This document shows, one piece after another, positions 7,401 through 54,835 of a stretch of 64,000 bases of DNA; position 1 is the first letter of the stretch, and every line of letters starts with the position of its first letter. Position numbers and translations under genes: made by a program. The stretch lies in contig JAULBX010009991.1 in assembly GCA_032358255.1 (NCBI GenBank), positions 279,168-343,167 on the forward strand, read 5' to 3'. The notes beneath the pieces are model-generated. The model saw nothing but the letters and a program-made list of their open reading frames with translations. It had not been told where the DNA came from and searched no databases. This DNA comes from Heterotrichella gracilis. Lineage: Eukaryota > Sar > Xanthophyceae > Tribonematales > Xanthonemataceae.

Positions 7401-10400
7401 CTACCCCATGATTGTATAGGGTTTTGGGGAGGGGGTGGGTGGTGCGGCGGCTGGAGAAGAGTTCGGTATCACAGGGACAGGAAACCAAGCAGGGGCAAAT
7501 TTAATGGGGACATATTCTACACAGATGCAAGCAACGCATGGAGCCACTTTCATGGGGCCATGTTGCTACAGGGATGTACTTGGAAGTTGCACTGCCAGCT
7601 GGCTGACCCACGTGGGTACACATATTCCAGCAAAGCACACCCGCTTCCCCTCCCCATGTCCCTACCTCTGTGCCGGGTCCCTTGCAAAGTATTTTTGTGC
7701 CTCCTGGTAGCTGATGGGCTGGCCATCGGCGCCCATCAGCTCGTCCAAATGCATGTCAAATGTAGGGCCCCGGTTGGTGGTGTCGGCGTGGAAGGACACG
7801 ATGCGCAGCACTGGGCGGGGACCTGGGGAAGCCAAATTCCAGGTGAGCTTCGGAGATGAAGTGGCCTGGGAAGCCGGTGCAAGGGGCGATGGGCACATCA
7901 TGAGTGCCAGGAAAGGTGTTCATAGTATCAATTCTTACAATTTATGAAATTCTGATGACGAATTCTTTAATTCCTACAATAATTAAATTCAGATGATGAA
8001 AATTATTAATTTAATCCATTTATTGAGTAATTTAATAAATTTCATCATCTGAAATTAACAATTGTAGTATTGAAACTTTTTCCTCCTCTTTTGGGCACAC
8101 TCTCCAGACTTTCAAATCACAGTTGAACGCCCCCTTCCCCCCCCCCAGCCCCACCTGCCGCTGCCTGCCTTGCCTCCATGTGCCTCCACAGCCGCTGCCT
8201 GGCCACCGGCTGCCGCTGCAGCGCCACGTGGCACGCCTCCCGCAGCGGCATCTGCAGCACCAGGCTGCCGCTGTAGTCGCTGATGCCGCCCATCACGTCA
8301 AGGCGGCCAGGGGCGCGCGTCACGATCAGGGGCTCCTACGCAGGCATGGGAGGAATGGTCGTTATGCGCCGAACGGTGCTCATGGACCCGTGAGGGATTG
8401 TGTTAAATTTTCTTTGAACAGCGGGCATTGATATTAGATAAATGGTTCTGTACTTATAACATTCAAATCTGAAACTGTGAAAAATCTGCTTTTATTTCTG
8501 TTTATGAACAGGGCGTGGAAATCATGAGCTGCAGAAAATGTAAACCCAAATGCCTCTTGTGGACCATTCAGCATCAGCCGCACACCAGCCCCAAATGCGA
8601 ATGAATTTATTTGAAAGTTTGCTGTTAGTTCTGCAATAAAATTTCTCCACATAGCCTCCAGTGATTTTCCAAGTCATTGTAAAAGCCAGCGCAGGCTCCC
8701 TGGTCATGACTGCAAAACAATCGGATAAATTATGCCAAGCCCACCACTATTCATGGCCCCCATCCCACCTCCCATATGAACAGACTGCGAGCTGCCTTGT
8801 GCTCAGGCAGCTCACTGTGCGTGGCAGGCTCCTGAAGCTGGCCTAGGGTTTCCAAGAAGGCTAGGGTGTCGGGCATGCGGCTGAGGTCCACAGTGCCTGC
8901 AGCATGGATGGACAAGCTCATACACGGAAGCAGGATGCCTTGTCTGCTGCATGTTTTGAGGGGGTACAGGGACATGTGGGCTGACCTGACACACACGAAC
9001 CTCGAAAAGAGCAGCACTTCAAGTGGTGTAAACAGCATACAGGACAGTATCTGCACACTGCATGAATAGCCAACAAGCCAGGTACTGGTTCAACCAACCG
9101 ACTGCCATCCATGGCCAGCATGGCTGCTCCACCCTGCAAAACATGCACACATGCAGAGCCACACGCGTTGTTCCCTTGCTCACGCTGCAACCCCCCGCTT
9201 CAGCTTAGATCGAGCACATGCATGCATCAGCAAGCTTGTAACAAAATAATCAAATAAATGGAATAAAATTAATCAGCAACGCACACACGCACCTTCCAGC
9301 ACGTTCCAGCCGTCCACCGCGGCCGCCCCGTCCTCCTCCCCCCCCTCCGCCTCCGGCAGGCCATGCAGGTGTACTGACAGGGTGCGCTCGTGGTCCTCCC
9401 AGCTGGGCAGGTGGCCGCGCGCGTACCAGTCGGGGACCTCCACCTGGCACCAGTGCCATGTATGTGAGCATGAAATACATGAGATATGAGGCAGGGTGTT
9501 ATTTCAAAAGTTTTGCTTCCTGAGGCCGATACTGACTGTGAAAATTTCAGTAGATGACATAGTACAGGTAGCGGCGGAGGTAAAAGACGGGGGTCTCCGC
9601 ATGGGAAGCATTGACAGCAATGCATGTGAGCAATGTTGGCGCACACAGCACGATTAGCAAACCCCCAGGGTACGCCTGCACCATGATGCATTATGCTCCT
9701 CCACCCTCATGACCGGGCACAAGCATCGACATGTCTAAACCACAAGCCTGCCTGTGCACAACATGGCCCGGCATGGACATAACTGCCCCCTGATCGGATG
9801 CAAGCATCAAGCACAGCCTGACTACGCACGCGTCCTAGCAACGCCAGTCGTGCCCCCTTGCCCTCACCTTGCTGGCCCGCTGGTGGTGCCTCTGGAGGAT
9901 ATAACCCCACACAATCGCGTCCCTCAGCCGCACGTCCTGTGCCCGCTGCACCTGCGCATCCTCACCGCCACCCGGCGCATTGGGGCCACCCACCCCCCAC
10001 CCGCGGGCTGTCTTCACCAGGAGATCGGCAACCACCTCCGCTCCATTGGTGGGGGAACTGGGAGCATGCAGGCAGTGTTGGTGGTTGGGACCCACGTGGA
10101 GGGATGTTAGGGTGTATAAGAGTGTGAGATGTGGGGTGTGTGGATGGGCAGGTGGTATGGGTGTTGCGTTGACACCTTAAAGGCTCAGCGATTCAGCACC
10201 ATCCCCCTCCATCCCCTCCGAATGAATTGTGTGTTAGGCAAGAAATCGGGAGGCACAGTTACAGGCTAAGGTGGAATAGCAAGTAGTGAAACCTCCATCC
10301 CCATCTTCCCAACAACGTCCGTCCGCCTCCACCCCCCCACCTGAAGTTCATGTCCAGCTCCACCGCCGCCTGCAGGTACGCACCCCAGTTGCCCGCCATG

Positions 10401-12845: not shown

Positions 12846-15800
12846 ATGTCGCACAAGCGCCAGTTTCCATATTGGTCCTCTGTGCCAGAATTTGAGGTGA
12901 AGAGGCAGTATACTGGGCCGAACCCTGGGGAGTACAACGAGGGTGGACCAAGAGTGTTTGATGGAGGGAAGAACTTCGATGACGTACAAGAGGTACTTGC
13001 GTGCTGAAGTGTTGGCTGAAACCTGCCAGTAACTTGGGTCTCAAATGCTGACATGCACATGCACCCTGGCAGCAGAGCGCACTGACTGAGCGCACTGAGT
13101 TCTACACCTGGACGGAGCAGCAGATCAAGGTAGGGTTCAAAAGTTGCTGTAAAGGGTTTAACACAGATTTATCACCCTTCCGCTGCCGTAATTATGCACC
13201 CATGCGCAGGCCTTCCTAGACCTGAGAGGGGAGGACTATGATGACTGCCAGAGTATGGGAGACCTGGTGAGTGCTGCCCAACATGACAAGCTGTTCTTGT
13301 TACCCTCGCCCCTCACAAAACGCTCCTTCATGTGTTGCTGCATAAACCTCCTGACAACATAAGCACCCACGCTGTTCCACAACGCCACAGGTGATTCGTG
13401 CCCAGCAGTGCGAGATTGCCACTGGCCCCGCACCCCCTCCAGGGGGAGGTGCAGATGGCAATAAAGCGGAGGAAGAGGAGGTAAGGCTATCATTTCCCGC
13501 CTGAGCAACAACACAATGTGCTCGTACTTCCCCACAGCAAGCACAGCACTTCGTACTCCTGGCGCGGCCGTTTTCCCGCGGTCCAGCCGTGCTGCCCTGC
13601 CCATGGTCTTCCCAATGATGCAGGAGGTTGACCCGCTGGATGCATTCATGGCGGAGATGCACGCAGAGATGAAGAGCGCACCTGCTGCGCCTGCCGCCAA
13701 GCCCAAGGCTGGCGTTGAGCTGGATGAGGAGACGGACCACGTGGCAGACTACATGATAGTGCGACCCGCAACCCACCCTCTCACCCACCCATGGCCTCAC
13801 CCATGGCAAAAGTAGTTGCCATAGCACCACGCATTCCGGCAGTACAGCCAGATTGTTAACATGCATGGACCAATGCAACTACTGGCAGGACCCACCCGTT
13901 GCATGGTATTGCTCAGGTTGAGCACATGCACCATGGTTCTTGCTTCATTTGGTAAGCGGTGCATGCCGCTCCCCCCGCAGGCGCGCAAGGCCAAGCCCAC
14001 AGCCACCATGCTCGCCGCAGCCTCCGCAGCAGCAGCCAGCGGGTATGGGTCGGACGACGAGGTGTATGCCACAGCCCAGGCCATGGGCACAGCTGTGGAG
14101 TACGACTCAGATGACAACCCCGTTGTGGTGCGGACCAAGGACATTGGGCCCCTGCCTGCGCTGGATCACGAAAATGTGGAGTATGAGGAGTTTTGCAAGG
14201 AGTTTTACGAGGAGAAGCCGGAGGTTGCGGCCATGAGCATGGCTGATGTGAATGCGCTGCGGCGGCAGCTGGGCGTGCGCACCTCTGGGTTTGATGTGCC
14301 CAAGCCCGCCACCTCGTTTGCGCAGTGCGGGTTTGATGCGCTGCTGATGGGGGCCATCAAGAAGGCAGGGTGAGTGGCCAGCATTGCAGTGAATGGCGGC
14401 CATGTGCATATGTCATGTTGCCAGCATGCACCCAAATGCATGGTACATAAGCATGCGGCGTCATGGGCGGATCAGCGCCATCGGCATGCATCTGCCCATG
14501 ACGCCCCGCATGCTTATGTACCATGCATTTGGGTGCATGCTGGCAAACTGCCGCCACATAAACGATTTATCTTTCCAAGTTGCATGCCCCCTCCTGCACC
14601 TCCATGCATGGCCAGCAGGCGCCCCAGCCCCACTGGGTGATCCGCCCATTGTAGCCTACAGCCTGTGCTATCTGCAGGTATGACAAGCCCACAGCCATCC
14701 AGGCGCAGGCCCTACCGGCAGCGCTGTCGGGGCGAGATGTGCTGGTGCGCAGCATGAAATTTGGTGTACCTTTGCTGCACCTGAAGTGGCAGACAGTCCA
14801 AAACAAGCGCATGTGTATTGCCGCATTGCATCATGTCGTAACAAATGAATATATTCATTATATTTTTACCCAATGCATCACGCAATTTGAATCACTAGAT
14901 GCCACCACATTTGGTCTAGCAGTGCCAACTTATGCAACTTGACACCATTGAGTGGAATGCCCTAGATGCCTCAAAGCGCTTACCCATGATTCAGTCATGC
15001 CTTCTACACATGCCCGCGTACACACACCAGCAGCCCCACCCTGTGCCCCCGCCCAACACCACCATACACCGCACCTCCAGGGCATCGCCAAGACAGGGTC
15101 CGGCAAGACCGCCGCCTTTGTGCTGCCCATGCTTGTGCACATCATGGACCAGCGGGAGCTTGAGAAGGGCGAGGGGCCCATCGGGGTCATTGTGGCGCCC
15201 ACCCGCGAGCTGGCAGAGCAGATCCACAAGGAGGCCAGGCGCTTCAGCAGGCCGTACAACCTGCGGGTGTGCGCTGCGTTTGGGGGCCTGAGCAAGCATG
15301 AGCAGTTCAAGGAGCTCAAGGCAGGGTCGGAGGTGGGTGACGGGGGGGGCAAGGGGGTTTTGAGTTGAAGGGGGTTGGGTTGGGGCTAAGCAAATGGCCT
15401 TGAGCTGTGCATAATGGGTATTGTGCTGCAAAGTAATGCAAGGAGTCAAATAGTGAACGGGCATCAAGTTTAGGTCTTGCAAAGCATATATAGCTTTGAA
15501 AACGTCTGCTGCTGCTACCCTTAAATGAGAGTTGGCCAGACCCCGTTGCACTGCCATGCCATCCCTACATCACTTTACAGGATTCACATACCTTACTGTT
15601 AAAGCCCATCCCCCTCTCCTTCCCATCCCCTTCCAGGTTGCCGTGTGCACCCCTGGCCGCATGATCGACCTTGTGAAGATGAAGGCGTGCACCACCACAC
15701 GGGTAACCTACTTGGTGTTTGACGAGGCAGACAGGATGTTTGACATGGGATTTGAGCCACAGGTGCGGGTTGGGGTTTTGTAAGGGAGGGGGCGGATCGG

Positions 15801-35751: not shown

Positions 35752-36374
35752 GGCGTCAGATGCATGCAAAAGCGCAAGTGAAGACTGGCTAGCTACAACG
35801 ATATCAACATGCGGCTGCGGGTGTGTGCACAAGCAAGTGCGAGATGTTTCGTTGTGTACGCCTGCCGGTTGATGGGTCTTGTTTTATCCCATGTCCAATG
35901 CCACCTCGTTTGGGGCCCCGCGCTTATGTTCCTGGGATTTTAAGCCAGTGGGGTTGCCCCCAAGAGCCTTCCACCTGTTCTGTTGCAAAGGCCATATTAA
36001 GCCAGGTTAAACGCCCAACGCCCACTAGTCTCGTTGTCAGCACTCTTTGTGTTAGGAAAAGGCTGCTGTATCCAGTCCGGTATCAACTGCATCTAGCACT
36101 GGGGTATGTAGGCACTCGTGCGTTCGTTTGCCCTGCACTTCTGGTTGTGCCTTGCACTCCTCGCCCCTTAGAAGGGCACAGTTTGTATTTCCTTCCCTGG
36201 CTGCTGTACGACAGTTGATGTGAGGGCGCACCAACTGCAGCCGCGCCACCAGGCGCAGCCATATGTCCTGCCCCAGCTTGCACCGAGGGGGCAGCAGGTT
36301 TCAGCCAGCCATCAGAGGGCCGCTGGCCAGCATCCCTTGACAGCGGGCACGAACACGCCTATCGCAGCACGCCT
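35752..36374. promoter_or_regulatory. Divergent promoter interval plastid protein / SnRK2
   Basis: About 620 bases between divergent starts. No TATA-like or repeated element is convincing. Open frames here are short and lack known motifs; the 5' untranslated regions of both genes probably lie within it. Confidence 0.45.
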
Positions 36375-37914
36375 ATGTCAGCACCGCCCGACCCCCTCGA
36401 GGGTAACCCCAAGTACCAGAAGATCGCGGACCTCAACAGCGGGTCATTTGGGTTCGTCCTGCTTGCTCGCCACAAACAGACTGGGGAAAATGTGGCTGTC
36501 AAGTGCATCGAGAGAGGCAGCAAAATCACCAAGTATGTGGAGAGGGAGATTATCATCCACCGGTGTCTATGGCATCCGCACATTGTGGAGTTCAAGGAGG
36601 TCTTCTTGACGCCCCACTACCTGTGCATCGTGATGGAGTTCGCAGCGGGGGGGGATATGTTTGCATACGTTGTGAACAGGCGCGGGCTGCAGGAGAACGA
36701 GGCCAGGTGGTTTTTTCAGCAGCTTATCATAGGCGTGGACTACTGCCATAGAAGGGGCGTGGTCAGCCGGGACATCAAGCTGGAGAACACGCTACTGGAT
36801 GGCAGCCAGGCCCCGCTGCTCAAGCTGTGCGACTTTGGCTACGCGAAGCACGAACAGAACCACTCCAGGCCAAAGTCCAAAGTGGGCACCCCTGGCTACA
36901 CAGCACCAGAGGTAGGCTAGCCTGTGCAGCTGTGTGAGCCTGCACCTGTGCTGTGGGTCACAGAACCCATCCCCAGTCAGTCTTTCACCCTGTTGGGTTC
37001 ATTGCATGCCATGATGGCTGTGGTTGTGACCTGCGCTGTTGTTGTCCACCGCACTCATCCCCAGCCCTTCACGCGTATTGGGTTGTTTACATCCTGTTGG
37101 CTGTGAACTGCAGGTCATCTCCAACAAGCGGGAGTATGATGGGAAGAAGGCAGACATCTGGTCCTGCGGGGTCATGCTCTACACCATGCTGTTTGCTCGG
37201 TATCCATTTGAGCGGCCAAGCGACCGCAACTTGGGGGAGTTTGACAAGTTCCAGAAAATTCTGCAACGAATCCTCAAAGTGGACTATGAGGTGCCGCCAG
37301 ACTCCAACATCTCACCCGCCTGCAAGGAGCTGCTGGAGATGATTTTGGTTGCAGACCCTGATAACCGCACATCCCTCAGGGCGATCCAAAAACATCCTTG
37401 GTATTCAGTAGACCTTCCTGAGGAGGCAGCAAACTTCAACGATACAATACAACCGCCTGTCCAGGGCCTGCAATCTGAAGAGGAGATCCACCGGATACTC
37501 GCGGAGGCCAAATTCTCGCTCAACAGGACTGCCTCAGAGCTCAGCAATGACTACATCGATGAGGTGGGTGTGGGTAATGGGGCATGTGCTGCCTGACTTG
37601 GCTCAGCCCCAACTCAAAGGTTGTTTGCTGGTCATGCTGCATACAGCTGGAGCCCCTTGCACGGCCCCAAACACCTGCAGGGGCCAGTTCGCAGAGTTTT
37701 ATAGGAGGTTTGGGCTAGTTCTGCACACACAAATTAGCCGTTGTTGTGCACCCCACGTCCATCACCGCCTGAAGAGGACAACGATTTTCAGGCTGACTCT
37801 GAAAATGCTTGATGTTTACTGCGGGTGTGCTGCTTGTCATACCTCAGCCAGTGTTTATCGCTGCAGGTGATGGACGACGAGGATGACGATTTTGAGGCCG
37901 CAGAGCTGAATTGA
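36375..37914 (+). CDS. SNRK2: SnRK2-type serine/threonine protein kinase
   Basis: Plant-type SNF1-related kinase of subfamily 2, involved in stress and nutrient signalling in green plants and algae. Exons 36375-36911, 37114-37563 and 37867-37914 give about 344 residues, the usual SnRK2 length. The glycine loop is LNSGSFGFVLLAR; the ATP-anchoring Lys is in VAVKCIERG; EREIIIHRCLWHPHIV is helix C; the catalytic loop reads SRDIKLENTLLDG, so the His of the usual HRD is Ser; CDFGYAKH is the metal-binding DFG; the activation segment is SKVGTPGYTAPE, with the Ser/Thr residues phosphorylated in this family. ADIWSCGVMLYTMLFARYPF is the F-helix region. After the kinase domain comes the SnRK2-box-like helix and a short acidic tail MDDEDDDFEAAELN, matching the subfamily's acidic patch. 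Asp, Lys and Asn catalytic residues are present, so activity is expected despite the HRD change. Confidence 0.9.
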
Positions 37915-51752: not shown

Positions 51753-51800
51753 CAGACTCTGCAGCCTGGAGATTTAAAAGGTTCCAGGCTGCAGAGTCTG
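51753..51800. repeat. Perfect 18-bp inverted repeat (hairpin)
   Basis: CAGACTCTGCAGCCTGGA at 51753-51770 is the exact reverse complement of 51783-51800, with a 12-base AT-rich loop. It lies about 500 bases past the CCT3 stop codon on that gene's strand, possibly in or just beyond its 3' end. It could be a structural RNA element or mobile-element relic. Confidence 0.85.
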
Positions 51801-52310: not shown

Positions 52311-54835
52311 TCAACCAAATTGTATCTGACACTGCAAAAGGGTGCAACCCAAGCCTGCAAAGAAGTTGATGCGCAGGGCGCCAACAACACGTACATTATC
52401 ACCACTGTCTGCGACAGGTGCCTTGGCTTGTCCTGGTCCCATCTTTTTGCTCCTTGTCAAACCACTGACAATGTCGTCGATGCGCAGTAGGAGCGTTGAT
52501 GCCTCAATAGCAGTTTTGATTGTCTGTGTTTTCACTGCGTAAGGCTCCCACACACCAAGCTCCTTCATGTCACAAATGCTGCCTGCAGCGCGTTAAATTA
52601 CTATTGACAATACAGAATTTGACGATACAGCACCACCAGCAGCATCGTAAGCCTACATGGAAAACAACATAACAAGAATGAGCTGCATGCTGGATACCTG
52701 AGTTCCCATCGATGCCAATTGTACAATCCTGGGATTCTGCATGTTTGGCCCTCAGTTTGGTGAGTGTTCTGATCACATTGGCTCCACAGTTCTGTGCCAG
52801 TGTCCGTGGAATGACCTCCAGCGCCACCGCCACTGCCTTGTAGGCTGTGGATTCCACGCCCTTCACGGTTGACGCCTTCTCAGTCAAACCACGTGACACT
52901 GCCATTTCTACTGCTCCACCGCCTGCAAGAGAGGACACCCGTTATTAAACTGTAAGCTCCACCCATGGGCAGGCCTGCAAAGGAGATTAAAAAAGAAAGC
53001 AGGCAGAGGCACTTGTTAGTACCTGGGACCAGCCGTGGATCCAGGCAAACATTGCGGGCAACCTCCATTGCATCCTGCAGGTTCCTTTCCACCTCGTTTA
53101 GGACATCCTTTGATGCCCCACGCAGCACAATGGAGCATGCCTTTGGTTCTGTGCAGTCCACAATGAAGGTGAAAAACTCGTCACCAATCTTCCTCACTTC
53201 AAACAGACCGGCCTTGGTGCCAATGTCACTTTCCCGAATCTCCTCTGGCCTGTACACAATTGTGGCACCCGCCGCACGAGCAATGCGGTTGTTGTCAGTT
53301 TTGCGGATGCGACGAATGGCGCTGATGCCTGCCTTTGTGAGGTAGTGCGCTGCCAAATCACTGAGACCCTTCTCGGTGATGACCACATCTGGCTTGTGCG
53401 CAACAATCTCTCCACAAATCCGCTCAATGTACTCCTCCTCTTGTTTCAAAAGAGCAGCCCTGCACCAGACAGGCAGCAGTGAGTTGCACCACATGGGCGT
53501 TTTGGCGCCACAAGCTGTGACCTGCTGCGCGACAAACTCACCAGTCCTCTTCTCTCGAAAGCTCCACATTGGTCTGGTTCTCTCCCTTCTTGTACTCCAA
53601 AGGGCAATCCAACAGCAGGATGCGCGGGTTGTGTATCTTGCGGCGCATTCTGCCTGGTGAGACCACATCTTTCTGGAACATGACCCCACTGAGAACCCGC
53701 GAGTCCTCCATTGCGCCACCAGGAATTTTCTCGACCTTTGCATACTTCTTTATATCAATTTCTCGTTGGTTGTTGCCAACATCCACGGCAACTGTCTGCA
53801 CAGAGTCCAAAGCAAGCTCCTGCATGAAAAGTGAGAGTGAGAAGTTCTGCAGTCACCCAGGTGCAAAAAGACCCTCAACCCCACCCTGTCGCCCAGTCCG
53901 TACCGCAATCAAGGAGCCGAATCTGTGTGTAAACTTTGTGCCAATGCAGCTGTTGACAATTTTCATCAGCTGCTCCCGGTTCCCCACATCAATTGGGAAG
54001 GCAAGCTCATCAATGATCTTGATGGCGTCTTCCAGTGCCTTGACATAACCCTTGACTATCACGGTGGGGTGTATGTTTTTCTCCAGCAATGGCTCTGCTA
54101 CGTGCAGCAGCTCACCGGCTGCAAGACAGAGGGAATGAGTTCAGGAAGCATGCATGCAGATGTCTGGGCAGCAGCCGCATGCATATGCACAGCCCATATG
54201 CATGCCACCACACATGCTGGGGAGCTGCGCGATCGAAAATCTGCCTGTAAAGGCGGCAACACTGTGCAAGCGATGAGCTACGATTAGAGCGGTGGCCTCA
54301 CCCAAGATGATGACAGATGTGGTGCCATCTCCGACCTCCTCGTCTTGTGTCCTGCTCAGCTCTATGATAGACTGCGGGAACGAAGAGGGCCCAGTTCGCA
54401 AACATGCGTCCAAATACCAAAATAGAAAGAAAGGGTTACTGAACGTACTGACCTTTGCAGCGGGGTGCGAAACATCCACCTCTCTGAGAATTGCGTTCCC
54501 GTCATTTGTGAGGACAATGCCTACACAACAGAGTCACAGAACTCGACACAGCAGTTGGGTACAGTGGAAATACAAAAAATATCAATATACAAGCACTCAC
54601 TTCCGTTGGGGTCCAATAGCATCTTCAGCATGGAGCGGGGTCCTAACGTTGTCCGTATGATATCTGCCACTGCCTGTATGCAAGGTGGTTCAGCCCCAGT
54701 GCGATTCAGCAACAGCAGGTGCAGACAAGCAACGCAAAGATAACGCACCTTTGCAGCAAGTATGTTGGCGAACTGAGCCTTTTTGCCCTGCTCTCGTTTT
54801 GCTGACATAGACAGGACTGTGACTGGCGCCTGCAT
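52311..54835 (-). CDS. CCT3: CCT3, gamma subunit of the TRiC/CCT cytosolic chaperonin
   Basis: ATP-driven folding of actin, tubulin and many WD proteins, as one of eight paralogous subunits of the double ring. It starts at 54835 (MQAPVTVLSMSAKREQGKK). In order: ADIIRTTLGPRSMLKMLLDP (nucleotide-binding loop), GIVLTNDGNAILREVDVSHP, TQDEEVGDGTTSVIILGE (catalytic GDGTT, about 54320), EIDIKKYAKVEKIPGGAMED, PRILLLDCPLEYKKGENQTN (apical domain, about 53610), RIRKTDNNRIARAAGATIVY, FTFIVDCTEPKACSIVLRG, GGAVEMAVSRGLTEKASTVK and TAIEASTLLLRIDDIVSG. The KKYAKVEKIPGG and TDNNRIARA motifs separate the gamma subunit from other CCTs. All ATPase motifs are intact. After the conserved end, a short extra tail ends ...CQIQFG; 63 bases before that end have GT-AG borders and keep frame, so the tail may be spliced or retained. 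Confidence 0.94.

Follow-up and report, generated by a model that had tools for sequence, protein, structure and literature searches.

Intronic hairpins that serve as precursors of microRNAs (miRNAs) were described in the green alga Chlamydomonas, for which one report lists 9 high-confidence and 7 medium-confidence intron-derived miRNAs, describes the efficient splicing of an intron with a stem-loop, and states that miRNA processing does not require splicing (PMC4817775). In another study, the condition-prevalent miRNAs of Chlamydomonas were often ascribed to apparently imprecise cuts of hairpins of considerable length, and young miRNAs were for the most part considered likely to be neutral (PMC5511227). 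In this work, we describe a long, nearly perfect inverted repeat located within an intron of a DDX42-like helicase gene of the xanthophyte Heterotrichella gracilis, found in a 64,000-nucleotide stretch of contig JAULBX010009991.1 (positions 279,168 to 343,167; hereafter the window, to which coordinates refer unless a contig or piece is named). This foldback is a further case of the kind of intronic hairpin known in Chlamydomonas, here in an alga that possesses Dicer and Argonaute.

The miRNA precursors which Chlamydomonas reinhardtii derives from introns (e.g., cre-miR1157; mostly dependent on DCL3) share several features with the DDX42 hairpin: in both cases the stem-loop is hosted by an intron of an ordinary protein-coding gene, and the genome encodes Dicer and Argonaute (both recognized here by exon-level matches). 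The DDX42 hairpin differs from those precursors in being nearly perfect and in being known from sequence alone. With belief and doubt in balance, we consider it to be a young, single-copy foldback that was born in place and is carried in the DDX42 precursor messenger RNA (pre-mRNA), where it could be diced to a few small RNAs, likely without an important target.

The inverted repeat occupies positions 14418-14546 on the plus strand, exactly where the initial annotation had placed it, and was borne out both by a repeat search and by folding. Its left (5') arm (14418..14472, plus strand, 55 bases) and right (3') arm (14490..14546, plus strand, 57 bases) enclose a 17-base loop region (14473..14489, plus strand), which is partly and weakly paired in the minimum free energy (MFE) structure. 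In the repeat search, the outer stem (14418-14458 versus 14506-14546) was complementary at 41 of 41 positions and the inner stem (14457-14472 versus 14490-14505) at 15 of 16, the sole exception being a G-U wobble in the plus-strand RNA, and the two surplus bases of the right arm, which form a bulge, were placed within CCCC at 14504-14507. The arms are thus one substitution and one 2-base indel apart. The arms of 51 and 53 bases and the 25-base loop noticed earlier are the same object, ended at the G-U wobble. The plus-strand RNA folds with an MFE of -114.2 kcal/mol and 59 pairs, in comparison with a mean of -50.1 kcal/mol (standard deviation 4.03) for 200 dinucleotide shuffles, which gives a z-score of -15.91; when the full 308-base intron was folded, the hairpin was retained (z -10.73). 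The locus therefore has the few-mismatch intronic stem-loop (59 pairs, z -15.91) looked for in miRNA precursors, and its position would make it transcribed.

With a score of 86, the DDX42 hairpin is the top inverted repeat of the window, whereas first-order Markov copies of the 13 algal sequences, 308,678 bases in total, yielded no score above 22, which excludes a chance origin and upholds the earlier view that such length and perfection are beyond chance.

The host intron (14370..14677, plus strand, 308 bases) begins with GTGAGT (14370) and ends with CTGCAG (14677), and the hairpin lies 48 bases away from the donor and 131 bases away from the acceptor. The preceding exon (13981..14369, plus strand; start set by eye from an AG acceptor, with translation) belongs to a region whose frame (13825-14370) had no Pfam match. 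The following exon (14678..14744, plus strand; end set by eye from a GT donor), which is reminiscent of the DDX42 Q-motif, lies in a frame with just one Pfam match, unrelated and below the cut-off (KDM6_C-hel, 14.6 bits). The identity of the gene comes from a further exon (15081..15332, plus strand; bounds set by eye), which encodes a DEAD domain and for which DDX42 is the nearest among solved structures: its frame (14952-15365) matched DDX42 chains best (111.9 bits), with DDX46 at 101.2 bits. The DEAD and Helicase_C domains share one strand in this gene. Both the DDX42 identity and the 308-base intron proposed initially are hence in agreement with our results.

It should be stressed that the exons flanking the intron are collinear, in frame and on the same strand, with GT/AG splice sites, whereas in a palindromic chimera one of the flanks should be inverted. 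An assembly or amplification artefact is suggested by the inverted chimeras that some library methods are known to generate, and by the presence of bacterial contigs in the assembly; given these flanks, and the several independent hairpins found (see below), we regard it as extremely unlikely.

A DNA search of the 68.5-Mb assembly matched the DDX42 hairpin only to itself and to its own reverse complement, and the intron with short flanks (326 bases) likewise gave only a self-match in the assembly, which does not fit an introner. Identical copies elsewhere, the finding that would have reduced the hairpin to a transposon remnant in the initial annotation, were thus sought in the whole assembly and none was found. 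Since words of very high frequency are passed over in this DNA search, three tiled patterns (14418-14441, 14442-14462 and 14458-14479) were additionally run with up to 3 mismatches; they found the hairpin itself and one further site, on contig C257, with 3 mismatches and rich in GCATGC (controls with reversed patterns: 0, 0 and 1 match). The three registers searched thus led to no second gene-like site at up to 3 mismatches. No target-site duplication was detected either, as the direct repeat at the DDX42 hairpin is at most 2 bases, within 3 bases of its ends. A short intronic element with inverted ends has the right shape for a miniature inverted-repeat transposable element (MITE), another foldback element or an introner; the lack of any other copy in 68.5 Mb and of a target-site duplication, together with arms that pair nearly to the centre, makes such a remnant very unlikely, and the foldback-element alternative raised initially was not supported. 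The Rfam search (4227 families, with the gathering score as cut-off) returned 0 matches in the window. A viral origin was also tried and rejected, as nothing was found in viral contigs for a single exact 28-base piece of the arm.

In the classic inverted-duplication model, the arms of a new small-RNA locus resemble its target gene. For the DDX42 hairpin, the three tiled patterns gave no gene-like site at up to 3 mismatches, and an important trans target is therefore most likely still lacking. The hairpin is similar to young plant MIRNA and hairpin-small interfering RNA (siRNA) loci arising from inverted duplication, which are named in PMC5511227, in its long, near-perfect stem and single copy. 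It also resembles the hairpins that Monttinen and Loytynoja (2022, PMC8794818) attributed to template switching, in being a near-perfect local stem without transposon marks; according to that paper, template switching can produce perfect stems in one event, and those cases were inferred from reconstructed ancestral histories, whereas the DDX42 case comes from one genome.

In the mechanism which we favour, about 55 bases of the DDX42 intron would have been rewritten as an adjacent reverse complement, most simply by one template switch during replication. Judging from its position, the hairpin would then be transcribed within the DDX42 pre-mRNA, its computed stem of 55-59 pairs being almost perfect, and Dicer would cut this stem into roughly two 21-nucleotide (nt) duplexes, which would make the locus a hairpin-siRNA or proto-miRNA locus. 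By analogy with an intronic miRNA stem in Chlamydomonas, splicing of DDX42 is most likely unaffected. As the arms are nearly identical, the event was presumably recent, or conversion has kept the arms alike.

For the comparison with other hairpins, the scan covered 13 algal sequences totalling 154,339 bases (151,986 once overlaps were removed), with a score threshold of at least 28. The scanned sample is not random, as 23,869 bases were chosen for their RNA interference (RNAi) genes and other pieces are search hits. Six distinct hairpins passed the threshold in the 151,986 algal bases, and none in the first-order Markov copies (a seventh row, window 7991-8050 with score 30, was nested in 7974-8067 and was dropped); the bacterial contigs (130,000 bases) contained one, 40 bases long, with score 30. 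The rarity implied by the initial annotation must accordingly be trimmed, as the DDX42 hairpin is one of six, while the structure itself stands. Besides DDX42, these are: a hairpin in the Dicer gene (L048:799-907 = C160:37298-37406; score 84), one in a galactokinase-like gene (window 7974-8067, minus strand; score 46), two in Argonaute (L015:854-1036 = C3:854-1036, 183 bases, score 46; and L016:4113-4271 = C388:4113-4271, 159 bases, score 28), and a short one at window 51753-51800 (score 28), which is perfect, with 18-base arms and a 12-base loop. Five of the six (i.e., all except the last) are apparently intronic, as judged by eye from coding matches and splice sites. At none of the six did a flanking direct repeat exceed 4 bases, which also counts against transposons or introners.

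The Dicer hairpin, located just past the RNase III exon, is likewise near-perfect (50-51 pairs; MFE -117.4 for the sense and -119.1 for the other strand). It resembles the miRNA precursor in intron 14 of Arabidopsis DCL1 (miR838) in lying within a Dicer gene; it sits in a different gene from DDX42, and comparable cleavage or feedback there is hypothetical. Its possible self-targeting was not supported, as its match to an exon of Dicer itself, 13 bases long, lacks significance (E 0.34), and within the sampled sequence the Dicer and Argonaute hairpins had only self-matches, besides ones of 13-15 bases. Between the RNase III exon and the hairpin, a degenerate second copy of the 3' end of this exon was seen by eye. 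The Argonaute hairpins, one separating Piwi exons on C3 and the other separating the PAZ from the Piwi portion on C388, are long, imperfect and similar to miRNA precursors; their sense strand folds better, though control introns vary equally. The hairpin at window 7974-8067 is AT-rich and decayed, with 54-base arms that are 81% complementary, and no second copy of it was found. Its host, a galactokinase/GHMP-kinase-like gene on the minus strand (GalKase_gal_bdg 28.3 bits, GHMP_kinases_N 47.6 bits), is presumably an L-arabinokinase. A 39-base tandem repeat adjoins this hairpin (region 7926-8075).

The range from near-perfect to decayed arms is what would be expected from birth and decay, and it supports our interpretation of the DDX42 hairpin as a young member of such a series. 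The same difference in arm identity among the sampled foldbacks is equally compatible with an inert, neutral product of template switching that is spliced out, degraded and never meaningfully diced while awaiting decay. Introns are typically degraded soon after splicing, and the tiled patterns gave no second gene-like site at up to 3 mismatches, both of which agree with such an inert foldback; we consider it possible but doubtful.

Genes of both Dicer and Argonaute are present in the assembly, as recognized by exon-level domain matches; the stem should thus find a Dicer for which it would be a fit substrate. On the minus strand of contig C160, a Dicer gene was recognized by its Dicer_dimer domain (39.3 bits, cut-off 23.7) and by an RNase III exon scoring above the Ribonucleas_3_3 threshold (35.5 bits, or 36.5 bits when one stop is read through). 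Among solved structures, this exon is nearest to chains of two plant proteins, scoring 58.0 bits with Dicer-like 3 and 52.3 bits with Endoribonuclease Dicer homolog 1; this comparison of the C160 Dicer with solved structures was made over single exons. For Argonaute, four Piwi matches above the cut-off were found on C3 and C388, the strongest Piwi exon being closest to Argonaute chains, and a PAZ domain was found on C388 (30.6 bits, cut-off 28.8). As the pieces reach contig ends and carry neighbouring parts of the Piwi profile, they probably represent one gene broken by the assembly. A Pfam scan of eight frames produced no match in three of them, L042:1952-2497, L042:2734-3045 and L004:1481-1852 (the last on the strand opposite to the gene).

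Two further groups of RNase III candidates were not taken as Dicer: the hits L007 and L008, which belong to bacterial contigs, were rejected, and the gene on C2, whose recovered pieces derive from a single RNase III domain and both fall short of the Pfam cut-offs, was put aside. The Dicer route suggested in the initial annotation is therefore plausible, with a Dicer gene on C160 and Argonaute on C3/C388, and the small RNAs which it would deliver are a prediction.

Several points weigh against our interpretation. The Dicer gene of C160 is pieced together from exon-level matches and its gene model is incomplete: the far half of its RNase III domain is below the cut-off (19.9 bits versus 27), and the candidate for a second RNase III domain, an upstream stretch, lacks a Pfam match and bears a weak resemblance to Dicer homolog 1 (E 0.45), located just before the second RNase III match of that protein. 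Transcription and dicing of the hairpin are themselves inferred, and its youth is deduced from the identity of the arms, which arm-to-arm conversion could hold perfect in an old hairpin. Moreover, the passing over of very common words by the DNA search, and the restriction of the search for target-like sites to three registers, apply to the single copy and to the lack of a target, respectively.

The hairpin could also be a selected regulatory structure which governs DDX42 through cleavage of the pre-mRNA by Dicer or through splicing. According to PMC4817775, Arabidopsis DCL1 represses its own mRNA through its cleavage of the miRNA precursor in intron 14, which provides a precedent. Among the stem columns of the five intronic hairpins, 276 match, 11 are G-U in the sense strand, 3 are A-C and 29 are otherwise, and this excess of G-U over A-C (one-sided P 0.029) is a hint of kept sense-strand pairing. 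It is, however, almost uninformative on the DDX42 hairpin, which contributes one of the 11 G-U columns and one of the 14 transition-type differences (8 of the 11 come from the two Argonaute hairpins), and a strand-biased C-to-T mutation would yield an equal skew. When the antisense fold energy was subtracted from that of the sense strand, the differences were -3.1 for DDX42, -3.3 for the galactokinase-like gene, +1.7 for Dicer, and -11.0 and -15.8 for Argonaute, all inside the spread of -19.2 to +35.5 shown by 10 control intron stretches (some boundaries set by eye), and the Argonaute asymmetry was hence rejected as proof of selection. As the splice sites are also 48 and 131 bases outside the hairpin, a selected regulatory structure seems improbable. 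Thus, from the initial alternative of recent origin or selection, the former is favoured by arm identity, while for the latter, as for a self-regulating intron, no evidence specific to the DDX42 hairpin was found.

The occurrence of long hairpins within the genes for Dicer and Argonaute may be new, as no report of such intron hairpins in algae was found among the titles and beginnings of abstracts listed in literature searches, which is weak evidence of absence. RNAi genes contributed 3 of the 6 hairpins from 23,869 of the 151,986 bases (binomial P 0.053), and 2 of the 4 scoring at least 40 (P 0.12). As both values were counted after the fact, the enrichment is only suggestive and was kept as a lead. 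One might envisage a self-limiting RNAi circuit, in which Dicer would cut its own and the Argonaute pre-mRNA at the intronic hairpins and so set the RNAi capacity, with the DDX42 hairpin as a young recruit, but we judge this to be decidedly improbable.

If the DDX42 hairpin is diced, as our preferred interpretation holds, it would be a very young small-RNA locus near its birth, originating from one local copying event in an expressed gene. The miRNAs of Chlamydomonas are reported as not conserved (PMC5511227), and such a locus could show how non-conserved miRNA loci arise. Furthermore, intronic hairpins of varied arm identity, some of them in Dicer and Argonaute, would render the birth and decay of small-RNA genes, and a possible self-control of RNAi, testable in algae.

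As regards the composition of the assembly, the sampled pieces of contigs C1, C111 and C442 have 35-43% GC, long open frames and bacterial-looking genes, while the GC content of the remaining pieces is about 52-58%; being bacteria-like in a mixed assembly, these three were taken only as contrast. C111 and C442 carry two similar RNase III regions, whose neighbour gene is, we assume, FabF-like. The chlorophyll a/b-binding family gave 43 exon-level matches, and of 14 control genomes only that of the cyanobacterium Synechococcus elongatus matched, which fits a photosynthetic eukaryote, as far as such matches can indicate. It is also worth mentioning that GCATGC and related CATG palindromes are over-represented in the window (positions 1-64000), with 99 GCATGC seen versus 63.7 expected and 90 ATGCAT seen versus 39.3 expected under a first-order Markov model. 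Finally, the window contains exons with a protein kinase domain (36219-36917, plus strand; 152.3 bits) and exons with a TCP-1/cpn60 chaperonin domain (52883-53749, minus strand; 140.5 bits).
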